DNA from: Exiguobacterium mexicanum
GTDB lineage: Bacteria > Bacillota > Bacilli > Exiguobacteriales > Exiguobacteriaceae
Assembly: GCF_005960665.1 (NCBI RefSeq)
Contig: NZ_CP040676.1
Coordinates: 1,374,501-1,438,500, forward strand
Direction of reading: 5' to 3'
DNA length: 64,000 nucleotides
Shown here piece by piece: positions 10,050 through 50,154 of the stretch. Position 1 is the first letter of the stretch. Each line of letters begins with the position of its first letter. The notes beneath the pieces were generated by a model. It made no database searches. It was not told the DNA's origin and worked only from the letters and a program-made list of their open reading frames with translations. Position numbers and translations under genes: made by a program.

Positions 10050-10961
10050 TTATCGTTTCATCAACCAATCGTTCAATCGGCGGATGAGTTCGGGATGAAG
10101 CGGCGCCTCAATGGCGTCCCGATATTCCTTATGCAACGTGAGGAGCGCGTGCGGACTGGTTCGTTCGACGAGCAAGTGGTTCATGTCGTGGATGATGTGG
10201 CTGTCGACGTCCCCTTTCGTCCGAATCGAATGGACGTGCTCCGGTGGGACTTGGACGTCGCGGTCGCCGGTCAGGGCGAGCACGGGAACACGCACATGTT
10301 CGAGCCGCTCCCGGACGTCATAGGATGCATGCTCGCGAATCCACTTGGCGTTGACGACTTGGCCGCGGTACTTGAAAGCGGCGACATTCGTCCGCAGTGA
10401 CCGTTCGAGCAGATCGTCTTGGCGCAGACGAATCTTCTTCGGGACGCCGGTCAATCGATAGAACACGCCCTTGAGTCCTTTCACCGAACCGACTTCAGTT
10501 GCAAGTGCGTCGGCTTGCAGCAAAAACATCTTCTTCGAGGAATCGTTGAATCCGGCGAGAAGAATCAGTCCGGCCGCGTTCGTCTCGAGCTGGACCGCCG
10601 GGGCGATGACGGCCCCTTCGCTGTGGCCGAGCACATACATGTCCCCTGCGTCCGGCTCCTGTTTGATGGCGTTGACGACGGTGATCGCATCTGTCACCAA
10701 GTCGTGCAGCCCGACTTTATTGAAATCACCGTCCGATTCACCGATGCCTTGTTTGTCATACCGGTAGACGTTGACACCCATCTTAAAGAGCGCCTCGGCC
10801 AGTTTTTTATACGTGCCGAATTGGGATGGTCCAAGATTGCCGTCCCGGTCGCTCGGCCCGCTCCCGCTGAGCAGGACGACCGTCTTACGGGGTTCGCCGT
10901 GGGTCATCCACGTACCGGCCAGTTGTCCATAATTCGTTGTCACGTTCAGTTGTCGTTCCAT
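10050..10961 (-). CDS. Alpha/beta hydrolase (S33-like, acylhydrolase or esterase)
   Basis: A 303-residue alpha/beta-hydrolase. The start used is the ATG at 10959-10961 behind GGGGAGGCGATACG; the longer open frame has no ribosome site. An oxyanion segment SGSGPSDRDGN and a YDKQGIGESDGD turn precede the nucleophile elbow GHSEGA (Ser114). The acid is probably Asp in LTGDRDVQVP and the histidine that in HDMNHLL. This arrangement is shared by YqkD/acyl-peptide-like hydrolases. There is no signal peptide, so a cytosolic esterase or peptidase role is likely. It is monocistronic; substrate unknown. Confidence 0.82.
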   Translation of the reverse strand: MERQLNVTTNYGQLAGTWMTHGEPRKTVVLLSGSGPSDRDGNLGPSQFGTYKKLAEALFKMGVNVYRYDKQGIGESDGDFNKVGLHDLVTDAITVVNAIKQEPDAGDMYVLGHSEGAVIAPAVQLETNAAGLILLAGFNDSSKKMFLLQADALATEVGSVKGLKGVFYRLTGVPKKIRLRQDDLLERSLRTNVAAFKYRGQVVNAKWIREHASYDVRERLEHVRVPVLALTGDRDVQVPPEHVHSIRTKGDVDSHIIHDMNHLLVERTSPHALLTLHKEYRDAIEAPLHPELIRRLNDWLMKR

Positions 10962-11048
10962 CGTATCGCCTCCCCTTTCATCATACCGAAGTAATGGATC
11001 CGTTTCGAGTAAAAGAATAGACCGCCCCATATGTGACGGTCTTACTTC

Positions 11049-12251
11049 TTATTGGAGAGTTAACCACTCGCTGAGCCATTTAACGTGATCACGCATCGCC
11101 TCGTCAGAAAGACGACTGATTGTGTCTTTATCTGTATAAACGTCGTTATGGGCTGTGACAGAATCATTGACGGAGATGACTGGGAACCCGGCTTGCTTGT
11201 ACTCATCTAAGATTGACACGCCTAGACTCTTCACTTCGACAGGGCCAAAACCAATCCCCTCCATAAACGGATATGTCGTCATCCCACTTGTTTTGAAGAA
11301 TCGATTCGTCTCCCCTGTACCAAGTATATCAAGTAACATGATGACACGCGGCGTCGTACCTCGATCTTGAAGCATCTGCAAATAGTGCGTACTTGATTCG
11401 TATCCATCCCCAGTTCCATTCAAGAAAACGTAACGGACCGTTGCATCCGTCTCTACGTCATCCATCGCTTGAAGCGTATGGTAGAGCACGGATGCACCAC
11501 CTAACCCAGTGAGAGCGTGATCGCCATACCAGCTTCCCTCAAGTCGGGCCATGACAATCACTTCTTTGTCAGTCGTGCCAGGTTGCGTAAACTCTACGTA
11601 AGGAATTTCGTCTGTGAACGGCTCAATCGCAACCGTTTGACCGTCTTGGAAAGACTCGGCTGTTATTCGGTCGACCCCGGCCCCATTCAAGCGAAGTGCA
11701 GCTGAAACGTAAGCGAATCCATATTCTTCCGGAGCATCCGGGTGTGGCGTAATGAGATAACCTGCCGCATTCGCTTCGGCTAATTTTGTAAGATAGCGAT
11801 TCGCCGCCTCGTCATTAAGGACTTCTCCGTAATAATCGATTTCATACGCATCTTCCATTGCTTCATAAGATACGTCGGTCGTCGGTAGGACGATGACTCT
11901 TCCAGCCACATCAGGTATCGGGGCATCCCATTCCAAATGAAGCAGTTCCCCTTCAATTGTCTCTTCAAATGGAATTGTCGCGTACCCATCGTAAAATTCA
12001 TCATCAATCGTTATAGTCGGCCAATTCGTGTTGAGCGGAGCGTAATGAATCTCACGTTTCATATCGACTGAAGTCTCGTCAGAAACACCAATACCTAACG
12101 ACTCGAACAGTTCGACATTTTCATGGCTTTCTGCGACCCGATCGTATGAAGCAAAATATTCAGCCGTCTCATAAGGACTTGTTGCCGAGGCCGGATTGAA
12201 ATAAAGAAAAATAGTAAATAGGGCCGACAGTAGGCTGTACATAATGGTCAT
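11049..12251 (-). CDS. Secreted M28-like protein with degenerate zinc site
   Basis: A 400-residue exported protein. The first 24 residues form a signal peptide ending FNPASA. The later half follows the fold of M28 aminopeptidases: VIVMARLEGSWYGDHALTGL, then GGASVLYHTLQAMDD, then VRYVFLNGTGDGYESS. In active M28 enzymes these segments hold HxD, the bridging Asp and the Glu-Glu pair; here they read RLE, G and TG, so the zinc ligands are gone. One Asp (MLLDILG) and the TAHNDVYTDKDTI tail remain. It is therefore probably a binding or structural pseudoenzyme. The middle segment looks like a PA-type insert. ATG follows GGAGATACGTAG. Fold assignment is from motif order only. Confidence 0.65.
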   Translation of the reverse strand: MTIMYSLLSALFTIFLYFNPASATSPYETAEYFASYDRVAESHENVELFESLGIGVSDETSVDMKREIHYAPLNTNWPTITIDDEFYDGYATIPFEETIEGELLHLEWDAPIPDVAGRVIVLPTTDVSYEAMEDAYEIDYYGEVLNDEAANRYLTKLAEANAAGYLITPHPDAPEEYGFAYVSAALRLNGAGVDRITAESFQDGQTVAIEPFTDEIPYVEFTQPGTTDKEVIVMARLEGSWYGDHALTGLGGASVLYHTLQAMDDVETDATVRYVFLNGTGDGYESSTHYLQMLQDRGTTPRVIMLLDILGTGETNRFFKTSGMTTYPFMEGIGFGPVEVKSLGVSILDEYKQAGFPVISVNDSVTAHNDVYTDKDTISRLSDEAMRDHVKWLSEWLTLQ

Positions 12252-12345
12252 CTACGTATCTCCATAAAAAAAACTCACCAATAAATGGTTGTATTATCCT
12301 ATTATATTAAGTGATCTGACAATTGTATATTTATTTTTCAAGAAA

Positions 12346-12391: not shown

Positions 12392-14983
12392 TTATACGCC
12401 TTCGTAAGCAGCGTACATGATTTCTTTCAATTCTTCGACGAGCGGCATTTTCGGGTTAGCCGTCGTACATTGGTCTTCGAACGCGTCGACTGCCATCTTG
12501 TCGACTTTCGCGTCGAGGTCCGCTTTCTTGATGCCTTGGGCTTTGAACGAGAGCTTGATGTTCAAGCGCTGACCGAGCTCGATGATCGCTTGGATGAGCG
12601 ACTCGACGCCTTCTTCCGTCGTGCTTGCTGGAAGTCCGAGATAGCGCGCGATTTCAGCGTAACGCTCGTCGGCGATGAATGACTCATATTTCGGGAACGC
12701 CGCGAGTTTCGATGGGCGTGTCGCGTTGTAGCGGATGACGTGCGGCATAAGGATCGCGTTCGTCCGTCCGTGTGGGACATGGAACTCGCCACCGATTTTG
12801 TGTGCGATCGAGTGGTTGATACCGAGGAACGCGTTCGCGAACGCCATACCAGCCATTGTCGATGCGTTGTGGACTTTCTGACGCGCTTCGGCGTCATTGC
12901 CGTTCTCATACGCTTTCGGGAGGTAATCGAAGATCATCTTCATCGAACGAAGCGCGAGTCCATCCGTATAGTCGTTTGCCATGACCGAAACGTACGCTTC
13001 GATGGCATGTGTCAACACGTCCATACCTGTATCGGCCGTGATTGAAGCTGGGACCGTCATGACGAACTCAGGGTCGACGATGGCGACGTCCGGAGTGATC
13101 GCGTAGTCGGCAATCGGGTATTTGACGTTGCGTTTCTTATCCGTGATGACCGTGAACGGTGTCACTTCAGAACCCGTACCTGATGTTGTCGGGATCGCGA
13201 CGAACATCGACTTGTTGCCGAGCGTCGGGAACTTGTACGTCCGTTTGCGGATATCCATGAATTTCTGACGAAGGTTCGAGAACTTCTCTTCTGGGCGTTC
13301 GTAGAAGAGCCACATGCCTTTCGCGGCATCCATCGGTGATCCACCACCGAGTGCGATAATCATATCCGGTTGGAAGTGACGCATCGCTTCGGCACCGCGC
13401 ATGACTGTCTCAACTGACGGGTCTGGCTCGACTTGGTCGAAGATGCGGTACTCGACGCCAGCTGGCAAGTTTTTGACGACTTTATCGGCAAATCCGAGTT
13501 TGACCATCATTTCATCCGTGACGATCATCGCCCGTTTTTTCGATGTGAGCGATTGAAGGTATTGGACCGAGTTTTTCTCAAAGTAAATCTTTTCAGGGAC
13601 TTTAAACCATTGCATGTTCACGCGACGTCTCGCCACCTTTTTCACGTTGAGTAGATGTTTCGCCGTCACGTTCTCAGAGACGGAGTTTTTACCGTACGAC
13701 CCACAACCGAGTGTGAGTGATGGAGTCATTTCGTTGTAGAGGTCACCGATGCCGCCGTGTGCCGTTGGCGAGTTGACGATGATGCGGCAAGCTTTCATCC
13801 GGAGTCCGAACGCGAGGATGGCGTCGTCGTCAGTCGAGTGGATGGCTGCCGTATGACCGAGACCACCGATTTCAAGCATCTTCTCAGCGATGGCGAATCC
13901 TTCTTCACGCGATTGAACTTTGTACGCACCGAGCACCGGGCTGAGTTTCTCGTGTGAGAGCAACTCTGTCGCACCGACCGTCTCGAGTTCGGCAATCAAA
14001 ATTTTCGTGTCGGCTGGGACTGTGAGTCCAGCTCGTTCGGCGATCCAGGCTGCCGGCTTCCCGACGATTTCAGGGTTGACCGCACATGAGTCAGTTTTGA
14101 TGACGAGTGTCTCTAGTTTCGCCTTCTCTTCTGGTGAGCAGAAGTAGCAACCGAGCGCCGTCATTTCTGCTTTCACTTCTTCGTACACTTCTTGGTCGAC
14201 GATGATCGCTTGTTCCGATGCACAGATCATGCCGTTGTCGAATGTTTTCGACAAGATGACGTCCGAGATGGCACGTTTCACTTTTGCCGTTTTGTCGATG
14301 TAGGCCGGTACGTTACCAGGACCGACACCGAGGGCAGGTTTACCAGTCGAATACGCTGATTTGACCATCGCCGCTCCACCAGTCGCGAGGACCATGGCGA
14401 CTCCTGGGTGGTTCATGAGCGCTTTCGTCGCGTCGAGTGACGGTTTTTCAACCCATTGAATCAAATGTTCCGGAGCGCCTGCTTCGATGGCTGCGTCACG
14501 AAGGATGCGTGCCGCTTCACTTGAACACTGTTGAGCCGATGGGTGGAAACCGAAGATGATCGGGTTACGTGTTTTGATGGCGATGATCGCTTTGAACATC
14601 GTCGTTGACGTCGGGTTCGTGACCGGTGTGACCCCGGCGACGACGCCGACAGGTTCGGCGATGTACGTAATACCGTTTTGCTCGTCGTCTTCGATGACGC
14701 CGACCGTCTTCTCGCCACGGAGTGAGTTATAAATATATTCTGTCGCAAAGATGTTTTTGATCATTTTATCTTCAAACACACCGCGACCTGTTTCTTCATA
14801 TGCATGTTTCGCGAGGGCGACGTGTTGTTCGAGACCGGCTAACGCCATTGCCTGAACGATCGCATCGATTTTCTCTTGGTCGAACGTCATCAACGTCTCG
14901 AGCGCTGTGTGAGCTCGGGTGACGAGCGTGTCGACCATCTGTTCTGCTGATGTTTCTACTACTGCTTTCTCTTTAACTGCCAT
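12392..14983 (-). CDS. adhE: Bifunctional acetaldehyde-CoA/alcohol dehydrogenase
   Basis: An 863-residue fusion that reduces acetyl-CoA to acetaldehyde and then ethanol, regenerating two NAD+ in fermentation. The N-terminal aldehyde dehydrogenase domain (about 10-440) carries catalytic Cys254 in GMICASEQA and the TGGAAMV nucleotide segment. The C-terminal iron alcohol dehydrogenase domain (about 455-863) has GGGSPMDAAKGMW and the metal-binding LGINHSIAHKIGGEFHVPHG. Length is normal; AdhE forms long spirosome filaments. ATG follows GAGGAGGAAACCAAC. The 380-base upstream region holds candidate Rex and cre sites. A MarR gene is divergent from it. Confidence 0.97.
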   Translation of the reverse strand: MAVKEKAVVETSAEQMVDTLVTRAHTALETLMTFDQEKIDAIVQAMALAGLEQHVALAKHAYEETGRGVFEDKMIKNIFATEYIYNSLRGEKTVGVIEDDEQNGITYIAEPVGVVAGVTPVTNPTSTTMFKAIIAIKTRNPIIFGFHPSAQQCSSEAARILRDAAIEAGAPEHLIQWVEKPSLDATKALMNHPGVAMVLATGGAAMVKSAYSTGKPALGVGPGNVPAYIDKTAKVKRAISDVILSKTFDNGMICASEQAIIVDQEVYEEVKAEMTALGCYFCSPEEKAKLETLVIKTDSCAVNPEIVGKPAAWIAERAGLTVPADTKILIAELETVGATELLSHEKLSPVLGAYKVQSREEGFAIAEKMLEIGGLGHTAAIHSTDDDAILAFGLRMKACRIIVNSPTAHGGIGDLYNEMTPSLTLGCGSYGKNSVSENVTAKHLLNVKKVARRRVNMQWFKVPEKIYFEKNSVQYLQSLTSKKRAMIVTDEMMVKLGFADKVVKNLPAGVEYRIFDQVEPDPSVETVMRGAEAMRHFQPDMIIALGGGSPMDAAKGMWLFYERPEEKFSNLRQKFMDIRKRTYKFPTLGNKSMFVAIPTTSGTGSEVTPFTVITDKKRNVKYPIADYAITPDVAIVDPEFVMTVPASITADTGMDVLTHAIEAYVSVMANDYTDGLALRSMKMIFDYLPKAYENGNDAEARQKVHNASTMAGMAFANAFLGINHSIAHKIGGEFHVPHGRTNAILMPHVIRYNATRPSKLAAFPKYESFIADERYAEIARYLGLPASTTEEGVESLIQAIIELGQRLNIKLSFKAQGIKKADLDAKVDKMAVDAFEDQCTTANPKMPLVEELKEIMYAAYEGV

Positions 14984-29851: not shown

Positions 29852-30133
29852 TCAAACAAGCTGAGGAATAAGAATGACCGCCAACAGAAAAACGGAAGTG
29901 ATTTTTACTTTGTTACGATTCAATGCGAAAGGAAGCAGGAATAACCCAAGAAAAGTAATGGCAAGGGCGATAAGTCCATGGATGAAGTACCCTTCAGTGG
30001 ATGCGATTGGGATGCTGATCACCTGAATGGTTGGATTTAAGAAAAAGCCCATTGTTTCAAAAACAAGATTTCCGATTAGGCCAAGGCTCAGTAAGCATAC
30101 GGATAATAAGAAAATTAATGATTGCTTCTTCAC
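29852..30133 (-). CDS. Small membrane protein of unknown function
   Basis: A 93-residue hydrophobic protein with three likely transmembrane helices (about 5-28, 48-72 and 76-92). It starts at GTG 30131-30133 behind AAAGGAGGATTATC. The base composition is visibly more AT-rich than neighbours, as is the decayed peptidase gene beside it, so this patch may be acquired or relaxed DNA. I do not recognise a family. A weak hairpin lies at 29808-29832. Confidence 0.6.
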   Translation of the reverse strand: MKKQSLIFLLSVCLLSLGLIGNLVFETMGFFLNPTIQVISIPIASTEGYFIHGLIALAITFLGLFLLPFALNRNKVKITSVFLLAVILIPQLV

Positions 30134-30245
30134 GATAATCCTCCTTTTGAACGTACATCAATCAACATGACAAGGTAGACTCGTTTGTCTTCTTCATTAT
30201 AAACAATCACATATTATTTATGGAAAAAATTTCAACCAGTTCGGT

Positions 30246-30270
30246 TATAATGAGATTGATTCTAATCAAT
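30246..30270 (+). promoter_or_regulatory. -10 box with adjacent palindrome before the peptidase E remnant
   Basis: TATAAT at 30246-30251 is followed by the perfect palindrome ATTGATTCTAATCAAT (30255-30270), a plausible repressor operator at the transcription start. No convincing -35 is seen. Confidence 0.4.
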
Positions 30271-30305
30271 TTATTGAAAGAACTTTCATACGAAGGAGGC
30301 TCACT

Positions 30306-30811
30306 ATGAAGACGTGCTACTATCTTGGATGGTTCAACGATTTTTTCCCAACTCATTTGGCAGATGCCTTGTCACGAGACGTGACAAATCGGCAGTCCCT
30401 CGTAATGATCAGCTCGGACCCTGCCTCAACTGCGGAAAATGGTGTTATCGAGCTATCGTGGTTACAGGAAGCCGGCATCTTGTTCAACGTGACCTAATCC
30501 AATCGATTCAACAAAGCGACGCCATCGTCGTAGGCGCTAGTGCAGGCGCAATCAATATGTCTTTGTCTTGGTTATGCTCGCCAAACATGGGTTATGAGGT
30601 TTCAACCCCAACGATTTCACAGGGCGTGGCCCTCAACGATTTTTCGGTGCTCTCCCACTTCGATCTCGAACATCACATGCACATCGTCAAGCAAGAGCTC
30701 GCCCTCTTATCCGTAGAATTACCAATCTATTTGTCGAACAAAGATTGTGCACTTCGTGTTCAAGGTGATCAAGTCGATATCTTCGGAGACGTTTATTTGT
30801 ACGCGAATTGA
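30306..30811 (+). pseudogene. Peptidase E (S51) gene with internal deletion and frameshift
   Basis: Two frames together make a broken dipeptidase. The first (30306-30497, 63 residues, after AAGGAGGCTCACT) matches the N-terminus, with YYLGWFNDFFP and ending GILFNVT. The second resumes at about 30461 in another frame with VQRDLIQSIQQSDAIVVGAS, the nucleophile motif GASAGAINM, and then LSHFDLEHH and SNKDCALRVQGD to a stop at 30811. Between the two, the segment holding the Gly-Gly block is absent, about 35-40 codons by comparison with the family as I remember it (about 220-230 residues). A simple one-base error cannot explain this. The Ser nucleophile survives but no complete protein can be made. 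Confidence 0.75.
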
Positions 30812-47779: not shown

Positions 47780-48896
47780 GATCGGTCCCTCCGACGACGT
47801 ACGTCGCGGTCGTCAGACGTAATAAGACAGATTCATCGACGTCGACACCGAGTCCTGGTCGTTCAGACAATCGAATGAACGGAAGGTCGTACGTCAAATT
47901 GCCGATGTCTTCTGCAAAGCGGAGCGGCCCTGTCAATTCGACCGATTGGACGATTTTGCTCGAGAACGCGACGTGGAAACCTGCACTCGAGGCGACCGAC
48001 GACTCGACCATCGACCCGATTTGGCACTCGATACCTGACATCTCGGCCATATGGACAAGTTTTTTCGCCGGGTAGATGCCGCCGCACTTCATCAGTTTAA
48101 TGTTCACTTTGTGGGCGGCCTGCATCATCGTCAGACGACGCATTTCGGTTACACCCCGCACGCCTTCATCAATCATGAGCGGGACCGAGATTTTTCCTTT
48201 TACTTCTACCATGCCTTCAAAATCGTCGGCTTTGACCGGCTGTTCGACCCAATCGATATGGAATGGCTCGAGTAACTTCATCGCTTGGAGCGTCTTGGCA
48301 GCATTGACCCAACCTTGATTGACATCGACCCGAATCGGAACGTCCGGTCCGACGGCTCGACGAACCGCCTCGACACGTCGTACGTCCGAGGCGACATCGA
48401 CGCCGACTTTCATCTTGACGGCTGTATAGCCTTGTTCGATTTGTTCGCGCGCCTCGTCCGCCATCGCTTCCGGATCTCCGATGCTTAACACGTGCGTGAC
48501 CGGGAAGGCATCGTGATAACGGCCGCCAAGCAACTCATACACAGGCAAGCCAAGTTTTTTCCCAACAACGTCGTGGCAGGCAATATCAAGCGCCGCCTTC
48601 GCCGCCGGCACGTCCCGGATGGCTCGGTCCATCACGTCATGGATTCGTTCCATATGCATCGGGTTTTGCCCGATCAAAAGTGGTCCTAGCACATGTCGGA
48701 TGACGCTAATCGTACTGTCGAGCGATTCGCCCGTGACGTGCTCATCAGCGACGGCCTCGCCGTAACCGACATGTCCGCACTCGGTCGTCAGTTTCACGAT
48801 TACCGACGGCATGTCGTCATAGCGGTGATAACTGACGATGAACGGTACTTTCAGTGGTAGACGTATCGCAAACAGCTCGATTTTCTTTATTCTCAT
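47766..48896 (-). CDS. Enolase-superfamily racemase/epimerase (dipeptide-epimerase-like, altered DxD)
   Basis: A 376-residue muconate-lactonizing-enzyme subgroup protein. The N-terminal capping domain is followed by a barrel with all catalytic positions: Lys161-x-Lys163 (KMK), metal ligands Asp191, Glu218 and Asp243, and the second base Lys267 in NIKLMKCGG. This fits L-Ala-D/L-Glu epimerases (YkfB). However, the DxD that grips the dipeptide N-terminus reads Glu320-Leu-Thr322 (VELTGPL), so a free-amine dipeptide is unlikely to bind in the usual way. An N-acylated amino acid is more plausible. ATG follows AAAGGGGAATAGAT. It is divergent from its likely regulator. Confidence 0.85.
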   Translation of the reverse strand: MRIKKIELFAIRLPLKVPFIVSYHRYDDMPSVIVKLTTECGHVGYGEAVADEHVTGESLDSTISVIRHVLGPLLIGQNPMHMERIHDVMDRAIRDVPAAKAALDIACHDVVGKKLGLPVYELLGGRYHDAFPVTHVLSIGDPEAMADEAREQIEQGYTAVKMKVGVDVASDVRRVEAVRRAVGPDVPIRVDVNQGWVNAAKTLQAMKLLEPFHIDWVEQPVKADDFEGMVEVKGKISVPLMIDEGVRGVTEMRRLTMMQAAHKVNIKLMKCGGIYPAKKLVHMAEMSGIECQIGSMVESSVASSAGFHVAFSSKIVQSVELTGPLRFAEDIGNLTYDLPFIRLSERPGLGVDVDESVLLRLTTATYVVGGTDHVAR

Positions 48897-48907
48897 ATCT
48901 ATTCCCC

Positions 48908-48944
48908 TTTACTTTTTATATATCATTAGCTATATTGTCGTTAA
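48908..48944. promoter_or_regulatory. Divergent promoters with candidate shared operator, racemase/regulator gap
   Basis: Plus promoter: TTTACT (48908-48913), 17-base spacer, TATATT (48931-48936). Minus promoter: TTTAAC (48940-48945), 17 bases, TATATA (48917-48922). The 16-bp element GCTATATTGTCGTTAA (48929-48944) covers parts of both and recurs with two changes in the nhaC promoter. Confidence 0.6.
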
Positions 48945-48963
48945 ATTGCAAGGAGGAGTTTTG

Positions 48964-50154
48964 ATGTCCATCCATATCGCCATCGTCGGGTCGCACGAAT
49001 TTGTGGCTACTATCCGTACCCTCGGTGCCCCAGAAGGTGTTCGGTTCGCGTATCACCCTTACGAGCATCCCCATGAAGCAGCCGTTATCGCCAAAACGCT
49101 CGGCTCGTTCGATGGTGTCTTTTTTTCCGGGTCGTTCCCGTTCACTTATGCGGCCCCCTACCTTCAAAACGTAGCGACCCATCACGTCGTCCAAGACGAG
49201 ACTGTCCTATTAACGACACTTCTCTATGCGACGCTCACCCACTCAGTCCCTCTTGATCAACTGTCCATCGATTTGGTCGAGCCGGAGCGCTTGACGTCAA
49301 TCCTCGAATCGTTCCCGAATCATGCCTCGACTCCTGCCGTTATGAAAGTCGAACCGAGTATCGCTTTCGAAGACGTGATTACTTTTCACACGGAGCACGG
49401 GGCCAAGCAGGCGAAACTGGCCGTGACGAGCATCGAACAAGTTCATCGTCAACTCGTCCGTGATGGATATCATAGTCTATTGATGATCGAGCCGCGGACC
49501 ACGGTCGAGCGCCATCTCGATATGTTAATTCAACGAATTCGACGCCAGTTCGCGGACGACGCCCAGTTCGCCATCATTCGTTTCGAGACCGACGACAAGG
49601 CATTACTCGAACATTTGAAAGTGGTCCGCTACCTTGGCGGACACATCGAATCGACCGACGATGGTCGTATCACGCTACTTACGACACGAGGCGAGACGAA
49701 CAACGCCCTCGATACAAGTACGCTCAGCCCAACAGGTGATTATCGAATCGGAATCGGCTATGGCACGCAATATCAACAAGCATACGAAAATGCTGAAATC
49801 GCACTATCGGCCGCAAGCAAGGAGCGCATTCGAATCGTCGACGATTCAAAACGCTTGTCCTTCCCGAACCGTGAGGACCGCATCCCCTATCGAGTGACCG
49901 AAGTAGCGGTCTTTGACGTCATCAAGCAAGCCGGGATCAGTCCGGTCAACATCGGTAAAATTATGCAGTTCTCAAAGCACCATCTTGAATTCACGGCAAA
50001 AGAGTTGACCGACCATCTCGCCGTCTCAAGACGGACGACGGAGCGACTCATCAAAAAATTACATGACGCGCAACTGATCGAAGTGATTGGTGAAGAGATG
50101 AGTTACAACCAAGGACGACCTCGTGCCGTCTATAAATTCAATTTCCCGACCTGA
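48964..50154 (+). CDS. Transcriptional regulator with cyclase-like domain and winged helix
   Basis: A 396-residue putative regulator. An unfamiliar N-terminal domain (about 1-150) opens MSIHIAIVGSHEFVATIR. The middle (about 170-310) resembles a degenerate GGDEF/PucR-like cyclase fold, with RIGIGYGTQYQQAYENAEIA typical of such relics but no GGDEF signature. The C-terminus is a winged helix: LEFTAKELTDHLAVSRRTTE, then RLIKKLHDAQLIEV and NQGRPRAVYKF. The ATG follows AAGGAGGAGTTTTG. It lies divergent from the racemase and convergent with nhaC, so it likely controls both. Autoregulation is suggested by the overlapping operator. Confidence 0.72.
   Translation: MSIHIAIVGSHEFVATIRTLGAPEGVRFAYHPYEHPHEAAVIAKTLGSFDGVFFSGSFPFTYAAPYLQNVATHHVVQDETVLLTTLLYATLTHSVPLDQLSIDLVEPERLTSILESFPNHASTPAVMKVEPSIAFEDVITFHTEHGAKQAKLAVTSIEQVHRQLVRDGYHSLLMIEPRTTVERHLDMLIQRIRRQFADDAQFAIIRFETDDKALLEHLKVVRYLGGHIESTDDGRITLLTTRGETNNALDTSTLSPTGDYRIGIGYGTQYQQAYENAEIALSAASKERIRIVDDSKRLSFPNREDRIPYRVTEVAVFDVIKQAGISPVNIGKIMQFSKHHLEFTAKELTDHLAVSRRTTERLIKKLHDAQLIEVIGEEMSYNQGRPRAVYKFNFPT

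Follow-up and report, generated by a model that had tools for sequence, protein, structure and literature searches.

What does a protein do that has the build of an M28 aminopeptidase and lacks most of the residues with which such an enzyme binds its metal? The question is raised by a gene of Exiguobacterium mexicanum at 11049-12251 of the window, by which we mean the whole stretch of 64,000 nucleotides analysed; the gene and all features of it given below are on the minus strand. The whole open reading frame, 400 amino acids from its ATG, was assigned to a PA-M28 pseudoenzyme by the ORF call, an ortholog-profile search, profile-profile alignment and structural comparison. An in-frame stop lies immediately 5' of the ATG, and therefore the start is not further upstream; a Shine-Dalgarno-like GGAG is located 8 nt upstream of the ATG (12260-12263). 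A promoter-like site with 10 of 12 consensus matches is found at 12301-12329 and a second site overlaps it at 12293-12322; these are consensus matches only, six being found in the region versus 2.9 in shuffles. Given this site on one side and a terminator-like hairpin, also a consensus match only, 3' of the gene on the other (11019-11042), the gene is probably transcribed alone. Its neighbours in the window are adhE (12392-14983) and an alpha/beta hydrolase (10050-11030; Pfam Hydrolase_4), together with genes that we take to encode a DeoR regulator, a phosphofructokinase and a fructose PTS. Deriving a function from these neighbours was rejected: they remain at loci in which the target gene is missing and therefore tell little of what it does.

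Searched by itself, the window protein hits no family in Pfam or NCBIfam with an E of 10 or below, and among PDB sequences it finds just a weak M60 match (E 0.49). Nine of the 12 aligned orthologs, but not the window protein, match Pfam Peptidase_M28 within the same limit, the best with an E of 8.6e-7. A profile built from the 12 orthologs retrieves from the PDB sequences BSAP/YwaD (E 3.9e-7) and an Aneurinibacillus aminopeptidase (E 3.4e-5). Likewise, profile-profile alignment (hhalign) to three intact PA-M28 proteins yields a probability of 95.6%, with an E of 1.1e-8 over 336 columns. These three come from a set, A2, chosen by an intact-ligand motif that 4 of 30 loci passed; the fourth, L066, which has a near-zero score with the ortholog profile, was left out. 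For an AlphaFold2 model predicted from the 12 orthologs (pLDDT 74.5, pTM 0.71), Foldseek ranks 2ek8 first (E 7.7e-19, TM 0.48, rmsd 10.8) and VIA ranks BSAP first (rmsd 8.7, 341 residues aligned). A second model (pLDDT 83.3, pTM 0.76) aligns to BSAP in VIA over 344 residues with an rmsd of 9.2; it leans to the PA-M28 fold because its input included three intact PA-M28 rows. VIA also gives a structural match to 1amp with a Z of 23.3. Over single-domain M28 enzymes the rmsd is 3.0-3.4 versus the high values over both domains, and the models suggest that the two domains of the window protein are placed differently relative to each other than in the BSAP-type matches. The PA-like inserted domain is placed at residues 118-210 (11622-11900) by alignment to the PA region of the intact PA-M28 proteins, and its insertion in the peptidase domain is supported both by that alignment and by the structural alignment with BSAP; Pfam PA is weakly matched by one of the 12 orthologs (E 0.03). 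As judged from profiles and predicted models, the protein is a PA lid joined to an M28 aminopeptidase fold of the BSAP/YwaD type. The first-pass annotation had claimed the M28 segment order, and this is borne out by the profile-profile alignment, the ortholog-profile search of the PDB and both predicted models compared with solved structures; the check that it proposed, structure prediction against aminopeptidase folds, returns BSAP/2ek8-type structures for both models (VIA Z 21.8 and 25.7).

Bacterial M28 members carry their metal ligands in a characteristic order along the chain, and we located the corresponding positions in three alignments made with different programs on common ortholog rows. 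Five zinc ligands (His, bridging Asp, Glu, Asp, His) and a proton-shuttle Glu are named for GCP2 in PMC10794815. In all three alignments, Arg236-Leu237-Glu238 (11538-11546) replaces His-x-Asp, Thr248 (11508-11510) replaces the bridging Asp, Thr280-Gly281 (11409-11414) replaces Glu-Glu, and Tyr372 (11136-11138) replaces the last His ligand, the His of YHT. The sole metal-ligand residue retained is Asp308, the Asp of LDILG (11328-11330). Hence, at the five ligand positions R236, T248, G281, D308 and Y372, the window protein keeps one ligand of five and the protein of a relative, G008, keeps two. The 14 orthologs tell the same story: all have the Arg, the x-Gly and the retained Asp, none has the bridging Asp, and G008 alone has the last His. 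Thus every one of the 14 orthologs, which comprise 13 distinct proteins, shows the first three ligand losses, and 13 of the 14 lack the last His. Residues vary where ligands were lost, with T, I, W or S at the bridging-Asp position and Y, F, L or S (His in G008) at the last-His position across the 14; the catalytic Glu that precedes the Glu ligand has become Thr280 and is T, Y, S or N among the 12 aligned orthologs. In the alignment the SDH motif of intact members is also lost from the window protein. An active enzyme seen through a misplaced alignment was ruled out, since the alignments of the three programs concur at all five ligand positions. The motif changes read earlier from the single sequence, HxD to RLE and Glu-Glu to Thr-Gly, are confirmed; for the bridging Asp, said to be a Gly, the loss stands and the residue does not, the aligned position being T248 with G249 one residue later. 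Orthologs with the same losses, which were to be searched for, do exist for the first three, and the M28-fold pseudoenzyme as a whole is supported by sequence profile, predicted structure and ligand loss across orthologs. We infer that Arg236 and Asp308 pair where the metal formerly sat.

Where the protein acts may be read from its N-terminus. Residues 1-24 (12180-12251) are hydrophobic and would form a signal peptide or signal anchor, of which residues 2-18 are a predicted helix in the second structure model. In 14 of 14 orthologs the N-terminus contains a stretch of 17 residues that is more hydrophobic than the part beyond residue 40, and the remainder of the protein is acidic (pI 4.05-4.25) and free of Cys in the six orthologs checked, which together fits an exported protein of a Gram-positive bacterium. 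The signal peptide proposed earlier is upheld as a hydrophobic N-terminus and not in its typical charge: Lys and Arg are absent from residues 1-22, as they are from the first 22 residues in 11 of the 14 orthologs. With an N-terminus of this atypical kind, the protein is presumably secreted.

A target match is found in 14 of the 19 genomes of the genus, counting the window's own genome and a broken copy in G017; the sister genus has none in 19 genomes. Over 398 genomes of the class, the ortholog profile gives 16 matches, namely the 14 orthologs, one relic, in G013, and one short match, in G197 (E 9.6e-4). Six of the 19 genomes of the genus lack an intact gene: the G017 copy is interrupted by a stop; in G013 (L037) the last 34 codons remain as a relic between adhE and the hydrolase; G001 and G002 show a gap of 140-141 bp in place of the gene; and in G007 and G015 a transporter cluster occupies the site with no target. 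For the nine pairs whose dN is not zero, one of them including the broken G017 copy, dN/dS is 0.11-0.14 for the target in every case and 0.02-0.11 for the hydrolase. The values for the target represent purifying selection, with no whole-gene sign of positive selection. A gene in decay was accordingly rejected for the intact alleles because of their dN/dS, and it is true of G017 and G013. The protein is dispensable in some species and constrained where intact. A tblastn search of the window protein against plasmid and phage records gave no match at E up to 1e-3, and a mobile carrier was rejected on this result. We also considered and rejected an active PA-M28 paralogue as the target of regulation; Pfam PF04389 has five matches in the window's own genome, the two weakest at E 3.7 and 5.8, and the ORFs of the best three of the five, presumably M20/M42-type peptidases, do not look as if they had a PA domain.

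A further question is why the alleles of close relatives differ so strongly. AdhE of G008 and G011 is 99.8 and 99.4% identical to that of the window, versus 51.3 and 52.5% for the target, which is the least conserved of 53 (G008) and of 48 (G011) window ORFs; median ORF identities are 96.0 and 96.1%, and the next lowest values 70.8 and 74.1%. This comparison required more than 80% coverage; of 55 ORFs, two are unmatched in the G008 stretch, and four are unmatched and three under the limit in the G011 stretch. The first approximately 30 codons and both flanks resemble G008 and G011, whereas the remainder resembles alleles of other lineages. In 100-nt steps, identity to these two genomes is 83-100% on both sides, 75 and 78% at 12101-12200 and 45-68% at 11001-12100. 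In 21-nt steps, 6 of 6 pairs among G000, G008, G011 and G017 have 80-100% over codons 1-28 and 52-71% over codons 36-42; pairs with G017 drop earlier, at codons 29-35, and G011-G017 rebounds after that drop to 80-86% for two steps and then falls. Both profiles place the 5' junction of the exchanged part, an identity drop within the window's clade, at codons 29-42 (12126-12167), and the identity profile places the 3' junction between the stop codon region and about 10990-11023. In G011, codons 1-37 are window-like (88% of nucleotides) and the part beyond is G006-like (79%, versus 55% to the window); in G017 the start is window-like (86%) and the later part G005-like (79% versus 64% to the window). 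For G008, a donor-like allele was not found among the three alleles compared (55-60% of nucleotides).

The trees are in conflict as well. Forcing the five genomes of the flank clade into one group in the target tree, as they stand in a tree built from three flanking genes, lowers the log-likelihood by 334 units (p-AU 1.7e-123), the tested clade having been taken from the flanking genes after the identities had been viewed, with G003 and G008 as long branches. G010/G012/G016 and G004/G005/G009 remain grouped in both trees; exchange is therefore clear mainly in the window's clade. Identity profiles and tree conflict together bear out an allele exchange that does not follow the flanking genes, and the gene is a mosaic whose part beyond about codon 30-40 has been exchanged between species. 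In G014 the target protein is identical (dN 0, dS 0.02) though the flanking dS is 0.12-0.25, and identity stays at 98-100% over a tract that begins at the contig edge near 12330 and ends at about 10400. The target has a GC3 of 44-46% in G000, G008, G011 and G014, compared with 63-71% for their hydrolase and pfkB-like genes, whereas in G003, G010, G012 and G016 target, hydrolase and pfkB-like gene alike have 44-53%. One of the 55 window ORFs, a shorter one, has a lower GC3 than the target. We read the low GC3 as probable import from lower-GC relatives. Elsewhere in the window, two short low-GC3 ORFs at 29852-30811 have no match in the syntenic G008 stretch and a partial one in G011, and an ORF at 48838-50154 on the plus strand has 74-75% identity to G008 and G011, where most of the stretch around it exceeds 85%; this ORF partly overlaps a minus-strand ORF and may be spurious.

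The best explanation, to which we give a probability of about one half, is an exported non-catalytic binding protein derived from a PA-domain M28 aminopeptidase, the outer part of which is exchanged between species. An aminopeptidase of the BSAP/YwaD type would have given rise to a non-catalytic descendant, probably exported, either tethered through its N-terminal helix or released. The Arg236-Asp308 pairing would take the place of the lost metal, and the PA lid and the old cleft would hold a peptide or other ligand without cleaving it. Alleles may vary in their ligands or in the agents that bind to them, such that differing alleles would be favoured among close relatives; possible allele-dependent roles are those of a receptor or decoy for phages, bacteriocins or grazers, or of a binder of variable peptides. 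In support are the fold, the ligand losses, the invariant R236 and D308 and the other invariant residues, the low dN/dS, the rank of the target as least conserved ORF, the identity drop at both ends, the mosaic, the tree conflict, the protein shared with G014 despite differing flanks and the low GC3; pointing the other way are the export segment without Lys or Arg in 11 of 14, the lack of a sign of positive selection, the 6 of 19 genomes lacking an intact gene, the two allele groups that go with their flanking genes and the fast evolution common among secreted proteins. A change from protease to binder or regulator, as suggested from the sequence at first, is plausible.

Could the same pattern arise if diversity were not selected for? 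An accessory gene that is non-essential and weakly constrained, descended from an aminopeptidase that lost its metal site, would evolve fast and be lost frequently, and homologous recombination of the usual kind in its conserved flanks would bring in distant alleles. The broken G017 copy, the G013 relic and four genomes without the gene agree with this, as does the finding that in most pairs the target has a higher dN than its neighbours. For secreted proteins as a whole, rapid evolution and a mostly accessory status have been reported (PMC3506625), and it is mainly for this reason that we keep the neutral account as possible, if less likely. It is opposed by the dN/dS between alleles and by invariant polar residues in the old cleft; moreover, no other ORF among the 53 or the 48 in these stretches is as divergent, though the flanks recombine too in principle. 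Rather more doubtful is a genus-specific recognition protein, in which a zinc-free extracellular PA-M28 scaffold would have its outer part traded because its identity decides an encounter, be it as a receptor or decoy for phages or bacteriocins or in self/non-self recognition; such a protein would be a bacterial counterpart of the transferrin receptor as a non-enzymatic M28 scaffold. Improbable, in our judgement, is an enzyme with changed chemistry that would use invariant Arg, Asp, Glu and Asn without a two-zinc site. All 12 aligned orthologs share R236, N278, E285, D308, D363 and S364, as well as G279 and G281, yet four of the five ligands and the catalytic Glu are lost, we recognise no familiar catalytic arrangement in the alignment, and the invariant residues may be structural. 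A peptide-capturing partner of an oligopeptide transporter is very improbable. In its favour, the gene in G005, G006 and G009 adjoins a cluster that includes a family 5 solute-binding protein; against it, adhE is the neighbour in the window and in eight further genomes in which the gene can be seen with the genes on either side, and the cluster is present without the gene in G007 and G015.

The binding protein that we favour resembles BSAP/YwaD of Bacillus subtilis and the Aneurinibacillus AM-1 aminopeptidase (6hc6, 6hc7, 2ek8) in the shared PA-in-M28 fold, with residues 24-400 aligned; the PA domain of BSAP is described as a lid over the catalytic region (PMC3954873). Unlike these enzymes, with which it has 12-17% identity when structurally aligned, it keeps one of the five metal ligands, has neither the catalytic Glu nor the SDH motif, and carries no basic residue in its export segment. 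Transferrin receptors have a PA-M28 fold and no enzymatic function (PMC10794815), and nicastrin is described as aminopeptidase-like (PMC2647162). The transferrin receptor structure 3kas is among the matches of the second model (Z 22.0), but its C-terminal helical domain has no counterpart here, since the window protein ends with the M28 domain. Neither transferrin receptor nor nicastrin is close in sequence, and the window alleles, by contrast, are exchanged through recombination. The VARTIG modules of Thermococcales, as presented in PMC8416519, likewise have a protein part made hypervariable by interspecies recombination and a function not assigned; they have Ig domains and downstream cargo genes, whereas here the variable protein is an M28 pseudoenzyme and no constant partner gene was seen. 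Inactive metallopeptidases have been reviewed, and some use the pseudo-active site for binding (PMC11266112); that review does not use the term M28. Among open-licence PMC papers judged by title and abstract, we found no report of an exchanged bacterial M28 pseudoenzyme family.

To our knowledge, non-enzymatic M28 proteins are familiar mainly from animals. A bacterial non-enzymatic M28 family that is constrained, yet has its outer part traded, would offer, in a genus that grows readily, a way to study the binding of a dead peptidase and to ask what drives the diversity of the outer part. What is new here is the mosaic gene and the exchange of its outer part, which are beyond the reach of a single-sequence reading.

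The surroundings of the gene differ in several genomes. In five genomes (L030, L031, L033, L052 and L053), the interval between the hydrolase or the target and adhE holds a cluster of transporter-like ORFs and a family 5 solute-binding protein (L052 copy). Between the target and the hydrolase, G011 and G018 only carry an ORF of 149 amino acids (L035 5212-5661 and L040 5349-5798, both minus strand), preceded by a Shine-Dalgarno-like sequence and with no Pfam match in the L035 copy, which was scanned. An opposite-strand ORF of 87-109 amino acids occupies the same interval in G004, G005, G009, G011 and G018 (L041 7853-8182, minus strand, with similar ORFs in L030, L033, L035 and L040); the G004 copy has no Pfam match, and the ORF reads as a small membrane protein.
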